Positions 16,351 through 23,670 of a DNA stretch of 64,000 bases are shown piece by piece (the first letter of the stretch is position 1; each line of letters opens with the position of its first letter). The DNA is from Salegentibacter sediminis (GTDB lineage Bacteria; Bacteroidota; Bacteroidia; Flavobacteriales; Flavobacteriaceae): positions 62,001-126,000 of the forward strand of contig NZ_MSJR01000003.1 in the NCBI RefSeq assembly GCF_002078605.1. The letters are read 5' to 3'. Under the pieces are notes generated by a model that was given only the letters and a program-made list of their open reading frames with translations, did not search any database and was not told the origin of the DNA. The position numbers and the translations under genes are program-made.

Positions 16351-19300
16351 ATGAGTAAATCTGTTATCGCCCAAAGCTTTGCACAGTCCCCGCAACAGCA
16401 GGAATTGAGGGAAATCCTTGTCTCTTCTGAAAAAAATGTTTCCAAAATTCAACTAAAAGGCCTGGTGGGCTCGTCGCTTTCCTTTGTGACCGCCAATGCC
16501 TTTAAGGAAGTTGATAAGCCGTTTTTGCTGATTTTTAACGACAAAGAAGAAGCTGCTTACTACCTGAACGATCTCGAACAATTGCTGGGCGATAAAAATG
16601 TGCTCTTTTACCCGGGAAGTTACCGTCGCCCATACCAGATCGAAGAAACCGATAATGCGAACGTTCTTTTGCGTGCCGAGGTTTTAAACCGAATAAATTC
16701 CCGGAAAAAACCTGCTATAATCGTTACCTATCCCGATGCTCTGTTTGAAAAAGTAGTTACAAGAAAGGAGTTAGACAGAAGTACTTTGAAAATTTCGGTA
16801 GGGGATGAGCTTTCCCTGGATTTTGTAAATGAAGTGCTTTTCGAATACAAATTCAAGCGGGTTGATTTTGTGACCGAACCCGGCGAGTTTTCGGTTCGTG
16901 GAGGGATAATTGATGTTTTTTCTTTTAGTAACGACGAGCCTTACCGTATTGAATTTTTTGGGGATGAAGTAGACAGTATCAGGAGTTTTGATGTGGAAAC
17001 CCAGCTTTCAACAGATAAAGTAAAGAAGATCTCGGTGATGCCGAACGTGGAAGACAAACACCTGGACGAGATCAGGGATAGTTTCCTCAGGTATATTTCT
17101 AATCAAACTGTTGTTTTTGTAAAAAACCTGGATTTGCTCACCGCACAGGCCGATAAACTTTTCAGCAAGGCAGAGGAGGCTTTTCAGAAACTTTCAGAAG
17201 AAGTAAAACACAGCGAACCCGAAGCGCTTTTCTGCGATGGCCAGTTAATAAGAAGTCAGTTGAAGGAATACATGGTGGTAGAACTCAGTAACCAGGCTTA
17301 TCTGGAGCCTGAAAAGATCATTGAGTTTCAAATCAGGCCACAGCCTTCTTTCAATAAGCAGTTCGATTTGCTCATCGATAACCTGATCGAAAACCAGGAA
17401 AACGGCTATAAAAATTACATTTTTTGCGTTAGTGAACAACAGGCAAAGCGTTTCCACGACATCTTTGACGACCAGGAAAAGGAAGTGAAATACGAAACCA
17501 TAACGCTGTCCCTTTTTCAGGGTTTTATAGACGAGCCTGGCAAAAATGTATGTTATACCGATCACCAGATCTTCGAGCGCTATCATAAATTCCATCTCAA
17601 GAATGGGTACGCCAAAAAACAGGCGATTACCCTCAAAGAACTTAATAATTTAGAAGTCGGCGATTATGTAACCCATATCGACCACGGAATAGGGAAGTTT
17701 GGCGGCCTTCAGAAAATTGATGTGGAAGGCAAAAAGCAGGAGGCCATAAAACTGTTTTATGGCGAGCGCGATATTTTGTACCTCAGCATCCATTCGTTGC
17801 ATAAGATTTCAAAATATAACGGAAAAGACGGGAAAGAGCCTAAAATCTTTAAATTGGGTAGCAAGGCCTGGAAAAATCTTAAGAAGAAGACCAAAGCCCG
17901 GGTTAAGCATATTGCCTATAACTTAATCGAATTATATGCCAAGCGCCGACTTCAGAAAGGTTTCGCTTTTGGTCCCGATTCTTATTTGCAGCACGAGCTG
18001 GAGGCCTCTTTTATTTATGAAGATACTCCAGATCAAAGCACCGCCACCCAGGCCGTAAAAGAAGATATGGAAAACGAACGCCCTATGGATCGTTTGGTTT
18101 GTGGCGATGTTGGTTTCGGAAAGACTGAAGTTGCGATTCGTGCAGCTTTTAAAGCAGTAGATAACGGCAAACAGGTCGCCGTCCTGGTGCCCACCACTAT
18201 TTTGGCATTTCAGCATCATCAAACATTTTCTGAACGCCTGAAAGATTTTCCAGTTACAGTAGATTATTTGAACCGCTTCAGAACAGCCAAAGAACGCCGG
18301 GAAACCTTAGCCGATCTTGAAAACGGAAAGGTGGATATCATCATAGGAACCCACCAGCTGGTCAATAAAGCCGTGAAATTTAAAGATCTCGGACTTTTAA
18401 TTGTAGACGAAGAACAGAAATTTGGGGTTTCGGTAAAAGATAAGCTCAAGACCATCAAAGAGAATGTAGATACGCTCACGCTCACGGCCACGCCAATTCC
18501 GCGGACGCTTCAGTTTAGTTTAATGGCTGCGCGAGACCTTTCTACTATCAGCACGCCGCCACCAAACCGTTATCCCATTGAAACCAATGTGATAAGATTT
18601 TCTGAAGAAACAATTAGGGATGCGGTCTCTTACGAAATTCAGCGAGGCGGGCAGGTTTTCTTTATCCATAACCGAATCGAAAATATTAAAGAGGTCGCGG
18701 GAATGATCCAGCGCGTAGTGCCAGATGCCAGAATTGGTGTGGGTCACGGCCAGATGGAAGGTAAGAAGCTGGAAAAACTGATGTTGAGTTTTATCAACGG
18801 CGAATTTGATGTGCTGGTTTCTACAACTATTGTGGAAAGCGGCCTCGATGTGACCAATGCGAACACGATTTTTATCAATAACGCCAATAATTTTGGAGTT
18901 TCCGATCTGCACCAGATGCGGGGGCGGGTAGGACGAAGCAATAAAAAGGCTTTTTGCTACTTTATTACGCCACCTTTTTCAGCAATGACAGAAGATGCCC
19001 GTAAGCGAATTAGCGCGCTGGAACAATTTTCTGAACTTGGTAGTGGAATAAACATCGCGATGAAAGATCTGGAAATTCGCGGTGCCGGAGACCTTTTGGG
19101 TGGTGAACAGAGCGGATTCATCAATGAAATTGGCTTTGAGACCTATCAGAAAATTCTGAATGAAGCGATTGAAGAGCTGAAGGAAAATGAATTTAAGGAT
19201 TTATATTCTGGCGATGAGGATATTGAAGATAAAAACTTTGTAAAAGAAACCCAGATCGACACCGATTTCGAGATCCTTTTCCCCGATGATTATATCAATA

Positions 19301-19725
19301 ATATCACCGAAAGGCTGAATCTTTATACGCAGCTCAATAAGATCACTTCGGAAGAGGATTTACAAAAATTTGAAGCTGAACTCACAGACCGCTTTGGGGA
19401 ACTGCCCGTGCAGGCGGTAGACTTGCTCAACAGCGTGCGCATCAAATGGATCGCTTCCAAAATTGGCCTTGAAAAAGTAGTGTTGAAACAGGGAAAAATG
19501 ATAGGTTACTTCATCGCCGACCAACAATCGCGTTTTTACCAGACCAACAATTTTACCCGGGTTCTGCAATATGTGCAAAGCCACCCGCAAAACTGCACCA
19601 TGAAAGAAAAGAAAACCCGCAGCGGGTTGCGGTTGTTATTGACCTTTGAGAAAGTAAACTCCATAGAAAGAGCTTTAAAGGTTTTGGAGCCTTTGGATTT
19701 AAGGGCTAAGGTTGAAGCCCCCTAA
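16351..19725 (+). CDS. mfd: Transcription-repair coupling factor Mfd
   Basis: Mfd removes RNA polymerase stalled at DNA lesions and recruits UvrA for nucleotide-excision repair. The 1124-residue protein shows the UvrB-like N-terminal part (YPGSYRRPYQIEETDNANVL, SVRGGIIDVFSF). The CarD-like RNA-polymerase-interacting domain follows (LEVGDYVTHIDHGIGKFGG, near residue 435). The superfamily 2 helicase core has Walker A in CGDVGFGKTEVAIRAA (about 582-596) and the DEEQ box in IVDEEQKFGV (about 686). The relay helix region and TRCF C-terminal domain come last. An excellent promoter sits just before the ATG. The stop codon is embedded in a C5-TAA-C5-GAA-G5 sequence. Confidence 0.97.
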   Translation: MSKSVIAQSFAQSPQQQELREILVSSEKNVSKIQLKGLVGSSLSFVTANAFKEVDKPFLLIFNDKEEAAYYLNDLEQLLGDKNVLFYPGSYRRPYQIEETDNANVLLRAEVLNRINSRKKPAIIVTYPDALFEKVVTRKELDRSTLKISVGDELSLDFVNEVLFEYKFKRVDFVTEPGEFSVRGGIIDVFSFSNDEPYRIEFFGDEVDSIRSFDVETQLSTDKVKKISVMPNVEDKHLDEIRDSFLRYISNQTVVFVKNLDLLTAQADKLFSKAEEAFQKLSEEVKHSEPEALFCDGQLIRSQLKEYMVVELSNQAYLEPEKIIEFQIRPQPSFNKQFDLLIDNLIENQENGYKNYIFCVSEQQAKRFHDIFDDQEKEVKYETITLSLFQGFIDEPGKNVCYTDHQIFERYHKFHLKNGYAKKQAITLKELNNLEVGDYVTHIDHGIGKFGGLQKIDVEGKKQEAIKLFYGERDILYLSIHSLHKISKYNGKDGKEPKIFKLGSKAWKNLKKKTKARVKHIAYNLIELYAKRRLQKGFAFGPDSYLQHELEASFIYEDTPDQSTATQAVKEDMENERPMDRLVCGDVGFGKTEVAIRAAFKAVDNGKQVAVLVPTTILAFQHHQTFSERLKDFPVTVDYLNRFRTAKERRETLADLENGKVDIIIGTHQLVNKAVKFKDLGLLIVDEEQKFGVSVKDKLKTIKENVDTLTLTATPIPRTLQFSLMAARDLSTISTPPPNRYPIETNVIRFSEETIRDAVSYEIQRGGQVFFIHNRIENIKEVAGMIQRVVPDARIGVGHGQMEGKKLEKLMLSFINGEFDVLVSTTIVESGLDVTNANTIFINNANNFGVSDLHQMRGRVGRSNKKAFCYFITPPFSAMTEDARKRISALEQFSELGSGINIAMKDLEIRGAGDLLGGEQSGFINEIGFETYQKILNEAIEELKENEFKDLYSGDEDIEDKNFVKETQIDTDFEILFPDDYINNITERLNLYTQLNKITSEEDLQKFEAELTDRFGELPVQAVDLLNSVRIKWIASKIGLEKVVLKQGKMIGYFIADQQSRFYQTNNFTRVLQYVQSHPQNCTMKEKKTRSGLRLLLTFEKVNSIERALKVLEPLDLRAKVEAP

Positions 19726-19876: not shown

Positions 19877-20410
19877 TTAGTCTTCCAGTATATACCAGTC
19901 ATAAAAAGTATATATAATTTCCCACTTTCCGTCCTTCTTTTGAAGGATATAGATTGGAGATTCATTTATACTTTCCGTTTTTAAAATCGCTATGTTATCC
20001 TCAACAATAATCGGTTTACTTATTCGAAATACTCCTCTGGAAATAGAATTTTTCCGATCAAAATTGGGGGAAAGCTTAATATTGCCATTTAGGTGCTTAG
20101 TTGATAGCCTGCAAGGCCTTAAACCATATATAGAAGAATTTATAAACCTTAATTTTCCTTTCCCCAAAATTTCTTTGAGTTTATCATTTGAAATAGAAGT
20201 AGGGATTCCTGCACGGTCAAAAATTTCTTTATAATCCTCAAAATACCGAGCCCATCCCTTTTCAAATAAGGTTGTCTCATAAATTTCTGTTTCTTCTGAA
20301 TCAAAAACTGCATTTATTATTTCATAAGTTTTTGCATCACAAGAAGATTGAGCATAAGTAGATGAGGAAAATAAAAGGAATATGAATAGAATTTTTATCT
20401 GGACACCCAT
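19877..20410 (-). CDS. Hypothetical secreted protein
   Basis: This 177-residue protein of unknown function has a signal peptide: MGVQIK, a hydrophobic core LFIFLLF and a probable cleavage after STYAQ (about residue 21), so it is exported. The mature part contains two cysteines (SSCDAK and RPCRLS) and ends with strands IAILKTESI, IYILQKKDGKWEII and FYDWYILED. That ending resembles the terminal sheet of NTF2-like proteins, but the match is weak. It is AT-rich like the next two genes and lies on the same strand, 183 bases after the gene at 20594. The gap holds an SDR gene remnant. Confidence 0.75.
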   Translation of the reverse strand: MGVQIKILFIFLLFSSSTYAQSSCDAKTYEIINAVFDSEETEIYETTLFEKGWARYFEDYKEIFDRAGIPTSISNDKLKEILGKGKLRFINSSIYGLRPCRLSTKHLNGNIKLSPNFDRKNSISRGVFRISKPIIVEDNIAILKTESINESPIYILQKKDGKWEIIYTFYDWYILED

Positions 20411-20593: not shown

Positions 20594-21346
20594 TTACTTT
20601 TTAATTTTTTTCAAAAGAACTAATTCTTCTTCAAGGGTAAGCAATCGGAGTTTATTATCAGTAATTTCTTGAATTAAAAATTTTTCGGTAGTTTCCTTTG
20701 ATTTTATCGATTTAGAAGAATCCTGAAAATGGATTTTAATCTTGGTTTTAAAGCCGAATAAAGTGTCTGTTTTAATTACTATTTCTTTTTTGCCAAGAGC
20801 TGATATTTGAAAATTTTCAATATACCTGTCGTAAATATTGAGGAATGGAAAGAAACCTTCAGTATCAGACATAAAAGCCATAATTATTTCCTGTTCCTTA
20901 TTCCGAAGAACCAGATTGGCACCAGATTGTGGAGTGCCTGGGTTATTAAAAACTTGAATTTTACTATATAACGGAGGATTTTCCAAACCAGAGTTAGAAA
21001 GAGATTTTATCTTTTTCTTTTGGATCATCTCCAGGCTACTTCCTAGTGAATCTGCATATTTCTCATAATTGAGGAAGAGTGTGTCTTTGGAGATAGAATA
21101 ATTGCCATGGGACTTTTCTTGGGTTCCAAGGTGCATAAAATCAGTTCTTTCGAATCTAAAATTTTCTTTAAATACAAATTTGACTCCTATATCCCGAGCA
21201 GCTGTAGAAGGATCAATCCTTTTAAATTCACCAATGATGTTTTGTGACTGACAATTATAATTATAGCCCCAAAAAAATAAAAAAAGTAAAAGAATTTTTT
21301 TTCTAACAGCCTGCAACTGTGCCTTTTTGTGTCTTGTGATTTCCAT
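20594..21346 (-). CDS. Hypothetical exported protein overlapping the HExxH lipoprotein gene
   Basis: No family is recognised. The N-terminus has a basic stretch (VRKK) followed by ILLLFLFFWGY and a likely cleavage near CQSQ, so it is probably secreted or membrane-tethered. The mature part starts IIGEFKRID, contains alternating strand-like segments (SHGNYSISKDTLFLNY, ANLVLRNKEQEIIMAF) and ends in a Lys/Leu-rich tail. The start is uncertain. ATG 21346 overlaps the 3' end of the upstream gene by 44 bases; TTG 21316 would reduce the overlap to 14; ATG-less extension to 21370 is possible. The overlap suggests coupled translation with the upstream gene, so the two products may work together. Confidence 0.7.
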   Translation of the reverse strand: MEITRHKKAQLQAVRKKILLLFLFFWGYNYNCQSQNIIGEFKRIDPSTAARDIGVKFVFKENFRFERTDFMHLGTQEKSHGNYSISKDTLFLNYEKYADSLGSSLEMIQKKKIKSLSNSGLENPPLYSKIQVFNNPGTPQSGANLVLRNKEQEIIMAFMSDTEGFFPFLNIYDRYIENFQISALGKKEIVIKTDTLFGFKTKIKIHFQDSSKSIKSKETTEKFLIQEITDNKLRLLTLEEELVLLKKIKK

Positions 21347-22755
21347 TTCTATCTTTTCCTGTGAGTTCAATTGCGATTAAATCCAAAATTCTATTTTGGG
21401 CCGTACTTGATAAATTGTCAAATGCATTTGTCCCTTGTAAACCGCCCCAAGCTATATCCTCATAAAACTGCCGATCCATTGTATAGCCTTTCAATTGACC
21501 GAATTCTTGTAAGACATCAGCTATTGAATTTACGTAAGTATTTGCGATGTAGTCATGACCATCATTAATATAAGCAATTATCCAATTAGGCCCAAGAAGT
21601 TCTTTCCGCTCTTCAAATGTTAAGGAACTAGCATTGCTTACAGAAATAACATAAGCATGAACAGCTTCATGGAGAAAGGTTCGAGCCCAAGATATATCAG
21701 TGCCATTTGAAAAGGTGCTGGCATTAAAAGTAGTAGTAGCGGTAGTGGTTGATGTATTATAATTTATATCGGTAGTTGCTGTAGCTGTTGCGGTTGTAGA
21801 ATTACCACTTTTAACTGCCCAATTAAAGGTGGAATAATCGTTTTCGGCAAACTCAACTATTATCTTACCAACTCCATGTTTATGACCTTGTAAGGAATCT
21901 AATATTTTTTTTAAACAAGATTCCAATTTAGAGTCATCAATATTTTCTTCAATGGCTGCTGCAGCATCCTCTTCCGGCTCAGGAAGTGTTGGTGGAGTAA
22001 ACCCACCACCGGTGTCGGGAAATTCTCCAGGGGCAACTCCATCACCATCATTGTTGTTATCATTATTATAATCACCTCCACCACCACCGCTGCATTCAAT
22101 GATGTAATAATAGGTAGTTATACAACTGAGTTTCCAGCCCTCCCCTTTTTCATCAATAATTTGTGTACATATGACATCAGAACCATCATAAATCATATCA
22201 CAAGAGCCTTTTGTATTATCATATGATGTATTCAGTAAAATATCACCATCCGCCATTTGAAAGCTGCTATACTTCTCCCCGGTGATTGTAAAAAAGCTTA
22301 TTTTACCGGAATAATTTTTGAAATCTTTCCAATACTTAAACCATTCCTCAGAGGGTTCATATCTAATGATATATTTAGAACTTTCGTTTTTGCCATTTTG
22401 AAAAATCACCAGGTTATCAAAATAATAATCGAATTCCTTAGACTGTGGGTTTGGTATGTTATTTAGAACAAAAGTGTAACTTATTTTCCCTCTCTCGCTT
22501 ACCACTTTCTTTACGGGCATATCCCTTCTTATTTTTCCAAATTTTCCTGAATTAGCCGCTGTTTTTCTTGAGGAAAAATCTTGTTCAATAAAGGGAATTA
22601 GGTCTTTAGGAAGGCTATTTAGGGATAGATTTTCAATAAAAGGAATTTTTTCCGGTGCAGAATCAATTTTATTTTCCGGGGGGGGGGAGAATTTCTTCAG
22701 TTTCACAGGCTGCAAAGAACAGAGCTAAAATGCCAAGTAAGTAGAATTTTTTCAT
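21303..22755 (-). pseudogene. Putative HExxH lipoprotein, signal peptide out of frame at a C10 tract
   Basis: From ATG 22755 the minus strand encodes a perfect lipoprotein signal: MKKFYLLGILALFF then AAC (Cys17), followed by ETEEILPPP. A run of ten C (22678-22687) then leads to GK and a stop. The long downstream frame (reading to 21303, about 457 codons beyond the tract) begins SPPPENKIDSAP and has no ATG start of its own near the tract; a TTG at 22715 is its only nearby start. Removing one C joins the frames into one 483-residue lipoprotein. That protein would have a Gly/Asn-rich linker, a Pro/Glu-rich segment, a Thr-rich stretch and FLHEAVHAYV, an HExxH zinc-peptidase-like motif (bases 21657-21671, about residue 362). 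Family unknown. It is either phase-variable or a homopolymer sequencing error. Confidence 0.8.
22678..22687 (-). repeat. Ten-base C homopolymer inside the 5' coding region of a lipoprotein gene
   Basis: Ten consecutive G on the plus strand (C on the coding strand). With 9 or 12 C the lipoprotein signal peptide and the main reading frame would be continuous. With 10, as here, translation from the ATG stops two codons after the tract. Confidence 0.95.
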
Positions 22756-22866
22756 TTAAGTAAGTTTAGGTTAAGTTGGCAGGGTAATTAGTTGCAATGA
22801 ATTTATGCTTAAGTTTAGTAAGAACAAAATTATTTATTAAAATTGTTAAATTTTTATCGAAAAACA

Positions 22867-23670
22867 TCAAATATGCCCAGTATATTCAAACCCCAACACC
22901 TCCTTTAATTCCACCGAGCTTATCTTTTTTCCCTTAGAAACCCCATTCTTCTCAAATTCCGGGGCTTTTAAATTCTTTTCTTTTGCGGTTTTGGTGTAAT
23001 AATCTTCTTTGGTTGGATGCTCCGGATAGGCTGCGTTAAAGATCTTCCCCCAGGCTTCTTTTTTGATGATTTGGGTGATGATTTCTATACAATCCTCTTG
23101 CTGGATCAAATTTACCGGTGCTTTCGGATTTTTTACTCCGGTTTTGCCGGCAAAATAATTCACCGGGTGCCTGGCTGGACCAATTAAGCCTCCGAAACGC
23201 ACCACAGTAGTTTGAAAATACTCGTTCTCCATCAACATTTTTTCTGAAGCGATAAGTTGTTTGGCGGCATCTGAAGTACCGTTTGGCTCGTCTTCTTCAG
23301 TATATTCCGGGAAATCTTCCCGGTCCTCATAAACCGAGGTGGAACTCACGAAAATTACTTTTTCCACCGGTGACTTTTCAATATAATTGATAATCCTACC
23401 TATTTTCCCCACAAAATCAGCTTCAGGATCACTGCGTAAACCCGGCGGAATATTAATGATTAGAATTTCAGAATGGCCTAAAAAGGAGGTGAGATCGCCC
23501 TGTACGCCTTCAGGAAAGATCTTGATCTGGAAGGGAGTAATTCCCGCATCTTGCAATTGTTCCATCCTTTCCCGCCGGGTGACCGAGCCTTTAACACTGT
23601 GTTCAGCTTCTATAAGTGCTTCGGCCAGGGGCAAGCCCAGCCAACCGGTTCCTAATATTGATATGTTCAT
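22867..23670 (-). CDS. SDR-family NAD(P)-dependent epimerase/dehydratase-like protein
   Basis: This is a 267-residue Rossmann-fold protein of the atypical short-chain dehydrogenase group (YeeZ-like). The dinucleotide motif GTGWLG is at residues 7-12. FVSSTSVYEDR (about 108-118) contains the Ser/Tyr region, and FGGLIGPARHPVNYF follows. The substrate is unknown. No signal peptide is present. A diverged copy of its last 25 codons lies at 20441-20518, on the far side of the AT-rich island. The start is ATG 23670 (MNISILGTGWLGLP). Confidence 0.85.
   Translation of the reverse strand: MNISILGTGWLGLPLAEALIEAEHSVKGSVTRRERMEQLQDAGITPFQIKIFPEGVQGDLTSFLGHSEILIINIPPGLRSDPEADFVGKIGRIINYIEKSPVEKVIFVSSTSVYEDREDFPEYTEEDEPNGTSDAAKQLIASEKMLMENEYFQTTVVRFGGLIGPARHPVNYFAGKTGVKNPKAPVNLIQQEDCIEIITQIIKKEAWGKIFNAAYPEHPTKEDYYTKTAKEKNLKAPEFEKNGVSKGKKISSVELKEVLGFEYTGHI

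Follow-up and report, generated by a model that had tools for sequence, protein, structure and literature searches.

A 64,000-nt stretch of the Salegentibacter sediminis genome (NCBI RefSeq assembly GCF_002078605.1, contig NZ_MSJR01000003.1, positions 62,001 to 126,000 of the forward strand; hereafter, the window) raises the question of why a lipoprotein signal peptide stands out of frame with the long open reading frame (ORF) behind it. The sequence-only reading of the window had placed a run of ten C between the two, and this position is an exact match: G10 on the plus strand, C10 on the coding (minus) strand, at 22678-22687. Its frame arithmetic holds as well. The frame of the ATG at 22755 translates to MKKFYLLGILALFFAACETEEILPPPGK and ends at the TAA at 22669-22671 after 28 residues, and a 457-codon ORF encoding an HExxH motif (HEAVH, 21657-21671) lies in another frame, uninterrupted from 22676 to the TAG at 21303-21305. 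The signal peptide, MKKFYLLGILALFFAAC, is out of frame with this ORF owing to the C10 tract, which begins 18 nt past the lipobox Cys codon (22705-22707). The gene shares a trait of contingency genes: it is intact except for a repeat close to its 5′ end that shifts the frame.

Our answer, to which we assign a probability of roughly 0.7, is that this is a slippage-switched polymorphic lipoprotein toxin of Bacteroidota, with immunity genes directly downstream, and that the present assembly holds it in the OFF state. We favor a switch because frame-shifting repeats recur at the 5′ ends of the gene's relatives, mostly out of frame, and from this pattern we infer length switching at the C10 tract itself. 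A fixed mutation or a sequencing error at the tract is possible.

The repeats were counted in a full set of 298 family ORFs, with simple sequence repeats (SSRs) called by fixed thresholds. The 111 ORFs without a recognized in-frame lipobox, the window gene among them, were excluded, leaving 187; none of the repeat counts includes the window gene. A frame-shifting SSR was found at the 5′ end of 24 of the 187 members (from 22 genomes) versus 1 of 124 control ORFs (Fisher p 5.5e-5), in 16 of the 111 members with the HExxH domain and in 8 of the 76 without it. An earlier control (2/114) contained L004, a relative by its N-terminal module; the final one excludes relatives, and it errs high because its sole hit, L149, had been fetched for its poly-C tract. 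A few truncated duplicates remain in both sets, of 298 and of 187 (L125 is the window gene truncated at a locus end, and L293 and L301 represent a single gene), so the SSR rate is slightly low. Besides runs of A, C and G, the repeats comprised eleven distinct 7-bp units, two 8-bp units and single units of 5, 4 and 2 bp. The non-redundant DNA fetched (1.387 Mb) holds 22 SSRs with a unit of at least 4 bp. Of these, 18 fell in the family 5′ zones, which constitute 2.5% of that DNA; one of the other four is in the family member L043 and three are elsewhere.

The relatives show a recurring 5′ design, in which the frame of the ATG runs through a few codons and a tandem repeat to a stop, and the signal peptide is encoded in a different frame. 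The sequence-only reading had proposed phase variation from the window's tract, and that proposal is strongly, if indirectly, supported by the unrelated frame-shifting repeats that recur at the family 5′ ends and mostly leave the gene out of frame. Other C runs were also detected there (C8 in L259, C7 in L251, C6 in L108), and two family copies in G357 have 4 and 2 ACAAA units, respectively. Sub-threshold breaks in L055, L246, L251, L108, L374 and L377 are outside the 24. In L374 (G105:C2), three copies of a 14-bp unit, out of frame, lie within the stretch that encodes the signal peptide; the unit thresholds did not count them.

C/G runs of at least 10 are error-prone in sequencing, and a homopolymer sequencing or assembly error would mean that the true gene is in frame. 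The assembly (3.26 Mb, 22 contigs) has two such runs, the C10 tract and a C11 at C12:114514 that sits in no ORF longer than 108 aa, and the C10 tract is the sole C/G run of at least 7 in the window. Against an error, however, the coding C/G runs of 8-9 in this genome break no long ORF in the tract listing: there are nine C/G runs of at least 8, and the other eight break no long ORF's 5′ end. Nor can homopolymer errors explain the relatives that are likewise out of frame but carry repeats of 7, 5 and 4 bp. We consider an error quite unlikely. Judged by the decay of run lengths in the window, it is no great surprise that the genome has a run of 9-10 at some position; the unusual part is its position in this gene, and the chance that a random genome position hits the 185-nt 5′ zone of the family's single member here is ~6e-5.

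A genus-wide poly-C habit was considered and rejected. Across 11 Salegentibacter genomes, among them that of the window, the 15 other C/G tracts of at least 9 that were read are intergenic or the frame continues through them, and no surface-protein gene 5′ end is broken among these 15, so the switch goes with the gene family and not with the genus. Two further tracts are described for their surroundings. The C11 of the same genome (G000:C12:114514-114524; L012:1501-1511) lies within a short duplicated stretch, ~230 nt before an ORF that by eye resembles a type I restriction-modification methylase gene, and could act on a promoter. In another Salegentibacter, the C11 of L149 (G007:C26:195618-195628) is located shortly 5′ of the start codon of a lipoprotein gene.

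Relatives of the window gene were found by sequence and profile searches, with its own genome included in each count. They occurred in 7 of 99 near genomes, in 36 and then 79 of 397 genomes at the family level, and in 32 of 395 at the phylum level, with 74 relative loci in named genomes; the window gene is the sole member found in its own genome. In general, the proteins have a lipobox, a shared N-terminal module (defined by an iterated hidden Markov model) of ~100 residues after the lipobox, and variable C-termini. No relevant match was obtained for the window protein or its two neighbors in Pfam, NCBIfam or PADLOC (PF06184, E 0.054, was below the cut-off), and none for the window protein in NCBIfam up to E 0.1, where the presence of the TANFOR model TIGR02542 in the library was unchecked. 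In alignments of the C-terminal HExxH domain, the H, E and H are invariant (the rows were selected for HExxH), a further His is found in at least 90% of the rows, and a C-terminal Cys is also conserved. AlphaFold modeled this domain with high confidence (pLDDT, predicted local distance difference test, of 91.8). Neither the whole model nor the domain had a significant Foldseek match; VIA-align gave a best Z of 7.3 for the whole model and 7.1 for the domain. The nearest solved folds of the domain are mostly zinc enzymes, with an SprT-like protease and YbeY first, at weak scores (Z ≤7.1), and the modeled likeness may merely be a common arrangement. Tandem and truncated family copies are present in several genomes. 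At L288 (G380:C1:1347000-1354500), L242, L263 and L247, several full and truncated HExxH copies are arrayed together, like displaced toxin cassettes.

The sequence-only reading had described an HExxH lipoprotein, and both HEAVH and the lipobox are present; the family evidence extends this to a putative polymorphic toxin with downstream immunity genes. The family has two traits of such toxins, a shared N-terminal module with differing C-terminal toxin domains and a small gene directly downstream. When 26 proteins with the N-terminal module but without the HExxH domain were compared with Pfam, four had an AHH nuclease, one a WHH plus colicin-DNase and one an M23 peptidase above the curated cut-off; for the remainder, one barely matched DUF4056 and 19 had nothing above the cut-off, so that 20 of the 26 have no recognized toxin family. 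The downstream test covered members with 900 nt downstream and counted ORFs of ≤280 aa with a signal-peptide-like start. A small exported ORF was detected behind 127 of 127 HExxH members versus 26 of the 179 secreted ORFs that served as controls in these loci (behind the window gene, it is the ORF at 20594-21346), and behind 3 of 14 proteins with the N-terminal module and other C-termini. This pattern would fit a scheme in which immunity proteins against a periplasmic peptidase are exported and those against nucleases are not. Because the N-terminal module fronts varied C-termini and an exported ORF stands behind every testable HExxH member, we infer that the family comprises polymorphic lipoprotein toxins of Bacteroidota, with toxicity, immunity and surface delivery as predicted functions.

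Several observations weigh against a switched zincin toxin. Most family repeats are located before the lipobox, whereas the window's C10 is after it. When 264 genomes were searched in the reverse direction, starting from (AAAC)5, seven arrays were returned in six genomes, and none of the six that were read is in the family. No length variation was seen within any one species, and the window tract is known from one assembly. The modeled domain has weak fold matches (best Z 7.1). In-frame stops, lost start codons or plain frameshifts disrupt many members, and the family thus also loses genes. Among the 19 members with a start codon before the repeat, 18 were OFF and one ON (L381), which exceeds the two thirds expected under neutral switching (p 0.0047); five of the 24 were dropped from this count, as the tract was 5′ of the likely start (L032, L039, L208, L269) or at a contig edge (L115).

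One of the six arrays read, (AAAC)16 at L390 (G110:C85), directly follows an ATG, and the signal peptide of the lipoprotein there, a 237-codon frame unrelated to the family, is not in frame with it. This ATG-repeat-OFF layout is outside the family, so the design is not exclusive to it.

The 18 OFF members out of 19, together with the common non-repeat breaks at family 5′ ends, would also be expected from a recent and effectively irreversible loss, in which slippage in an ordinary proline-coding C run disabled a costly toxin gene (in the lineage or in culture), with decay to follow. Our own explanation of the OFF excess is selection for OFF in culture, and loss fits too. However, the downstream 457 codons are intact, the repeats are concentrated exactly in the family 5′ zone, and OFF congeners are under purifying selection. 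The last point comes from L294 and L295 of one genus: both are OFF, and the 7-bp unit at their shared repeat site differs between them. Their ratio of nonsynonymous to synonymous substitution rates (dN/dS, leaving out the first 55 residues) was 0.234, like that of the intact pair L057-L064 (0.254), indicating that the proteins have been under selection despite both sequenced isolates being OFF. Further values were 0.25 for L209-L211, 0.19 for L084-L088, 0.17 for the copies in L093, 0.46 for those in L055, 0.81 for L228-L275, 0.78 for L228-L376, and 0.83 and 0.71 for the copies in L118 and L352, respectively, indicating that tandem copies often diverge under weaker constraint; no value was obtained for L285-L293. 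Frame reading identified L066, L091 and L058/L182 as decayed relatives. On balance, we regard irreversible loss in the window gene as unlikely. In L055 (Marivirga arenosa), the tandem copies (ORFs from ~4283 and ~6635) have 5′ ends broken differently, one by a T-run frameshift and one by a TAG just past the lipobox.

C runs can act as slippery sequences, and the long ORF lies in the +1 frame past a run of CCC codons, an arrangement from which programmed frameshifting or transcriptional slippage could yield some full-length protein with the DNA unchanged. Yet neither the site nor the repeat is conserved in the family, and most relatives carry units of 4, 5, 7 or 8 bp, none of which forms a slippery site; we regard this explanation as very improbable.

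If the gene is instead switched through its DNA, slipped-strand mispairing at replication, which is established for tracts of the C-run type, would alter the length of the C10 tract. The frame would be lost or regained with tract length, and one length class in three would join the signal peptide and the toxin. With the frame regained, the lipobox predicts export as a lipoprotein, whose plan would be lipobox, shared N-terminal module, Gly-rich linker and C-terminal HExxH zincin. The zincin would be delivered by contact to neighbors, and exported immunity proteins from the downstream genes would protect kin.

The surroundings of the gene are summarized in the table. The Bacteroidota -7 promoter motif is TAnnTTTG, and the candidate element TAATTTTG was assigned by its fit to this motif. 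Candidate immunity gene 1 overlaps the end of the lipoprotein ORF by 44 nt, likewise in G006, and has a homologue directly behind the HExxH gene of L061; homologues of candidate immunity gene 2 are directly behind the HExxH ORFs of L039, L102 and L035. A 28% identical paralogue of candidate immunity gene 1 was detected at a contig end of the same genome (G000:C9:30-695, L050), where an unassembled repeat may adjoin it. Among 13 other Salegentibacter stretches, 12 have the mfd-like and epimerase-like genes pointing towards each other with 0.1-1 kb between them (the thirteenth, L179, had no mfd match), and in the window the interval between them is 3.1 kb and has three genes. The 13 stretches gave zero matches to the lipoprotein or its two neighbors (E 1e-3), so there is no same-locus orthologue for comparison. 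The genus relative G006 has a C-terminal homologue at another locus, without a readable signal peptide. The three-gene segment was probably acquired, and the interval may be an insertion spot. In three congeners (L174, L175 and L177), a different 185-codon ORF with a signal-peptide-like start lies between the mfd-like and epimerase-like genes.

Table 1 Features of the toxin-like locus and its flanks in the window.
Feature	Positions	Strand	Basis
C10 tract, proposed slippage switch, at an OFF length in the present assembly	22678..22687	-	sequence
28-codon ATG frame: lipoprotein signal peptide and premature TAA	22669..22755	-	translation
Mature-lipoprotein ORF, 457 codons, in a frame different from that of the signal peptide	21303..22676	-	ORF reading
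N-terminal module, common to lipoproteins with other C-termini	22227..22622	-	profile; recovered as G000:C16:84236-84598, E 1.6e-23
Zincin-like C-terminal domain with the HExxH motif (HEAVH 21657-21671), another conserved His and a C-terminal Cys	21306..22001	-	alignments, model, weak fold matches
TAATTTTG, candidate -7 promoter element, 77 nt 5′ of the ATG	22825..22832	-	fit to motif
Candidate immunity gene 1: exported 250-aa protein, start 44 nt inside the lipoprotein ORF end	20594..21346	-	homologue behind L061 HExxH gene
Candidate immunity gene 2: 177-aa protein, signal-peptide-like start	19877..20410	-	homologues behind HExxH ORFs in L039, L102, L035
mfd-like flank gene	16351..19725	+	adjoins epimerase-like gene in 12/13 other Salegentibacter stretches
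Epimerase-like (NAD-binding) flank gene	22867..23670	-	homology searches

Polymorphic toxins, including lipobox-anchored ones, and SSR phase variation are already known separately, according to the portions of the literature available to us. Zhang et al. 2012 (PMC3482391) described the lipobox-anchored N-terminal domains APD1 and APD2 of polymorphic toxins in Amoebophilus. Like the window family, the systems in that paper have a conserved N-terminal part, variable C-terminal toxin domains and a small gene directly downstream; unlike it, the APD effectors are presented as aimed at a eukaryotic host, and the terms 'phase variation', 'slipped' and 'simple sequence' are absent from the available part of the text. 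The TANFOR toxins of Bacteroidetes (PMC7073777) are from the same phylum and share AHH and WHH nuclease C-termini and downstream immunity genes, but are large proteins with an N-terminal TANFOR domain, and the accessible text has no lipoprotein, phase or frameshift wording. SitA of myxobacteria (PMC8546572, PMC5562445) is likewise a lipoprotein polymorphic toxin paired with immunity proteins, but it belongs to another phylum and is delivered by outer membrane exchange, with no repeat switch described in the part available (PMC8546572). The SSR contingency genes of Haemophilus, Neisseria and others (PMC3711429) resemble the window gene in having a 5′ tandem repeat in a surface-protein gene, the frame of which is switched by gain or loss of units; they differ in being capsule, pili, adhesin, receptor and methyltransferase genes, with no polymorphic toxins in the portion available. 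Among the matches listed, with partial full-text coverage, there was no report of SSR phase variation in Bacteroidota polymorphic toxins. The nearest precedent among them, as far as the available text goes, is in the FSD surface genes of Ornithobacterium hominis (PMC13183296), Bacteroidota genes with a stated 'putative phase variation mechanism', which differ from the window gene in being described as adhesins and whose phase mechanism is not detailed there.

A broader reading, which we put forward tentatively and at somewhat less than even odds, is that lipobox-anchored polymorphic toxins are armed at random across Bacteroidota, having grown their own 5′ repeats independently in many lineages. 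Most cells would be OFF with the immunity gene kept, and slippage would supply a small armed subpopulation, which would make contact killing a genetic form of bet-hedging. Slippage switches are familiar chiefly from genes through which pathogens interact with their hosts; the proposed switch is on an apparent interbacterial weapon of environmental bacteria, and recurs at the same place with unrelated repeat units. If this is true, genome annotation under-reports such toxins, since many of them look like broken genes, and repeat-length counts would give a measure of what a contact toxin costs its carrier and what it gains. Armed and unarmed clone-mates would then coexist by design.
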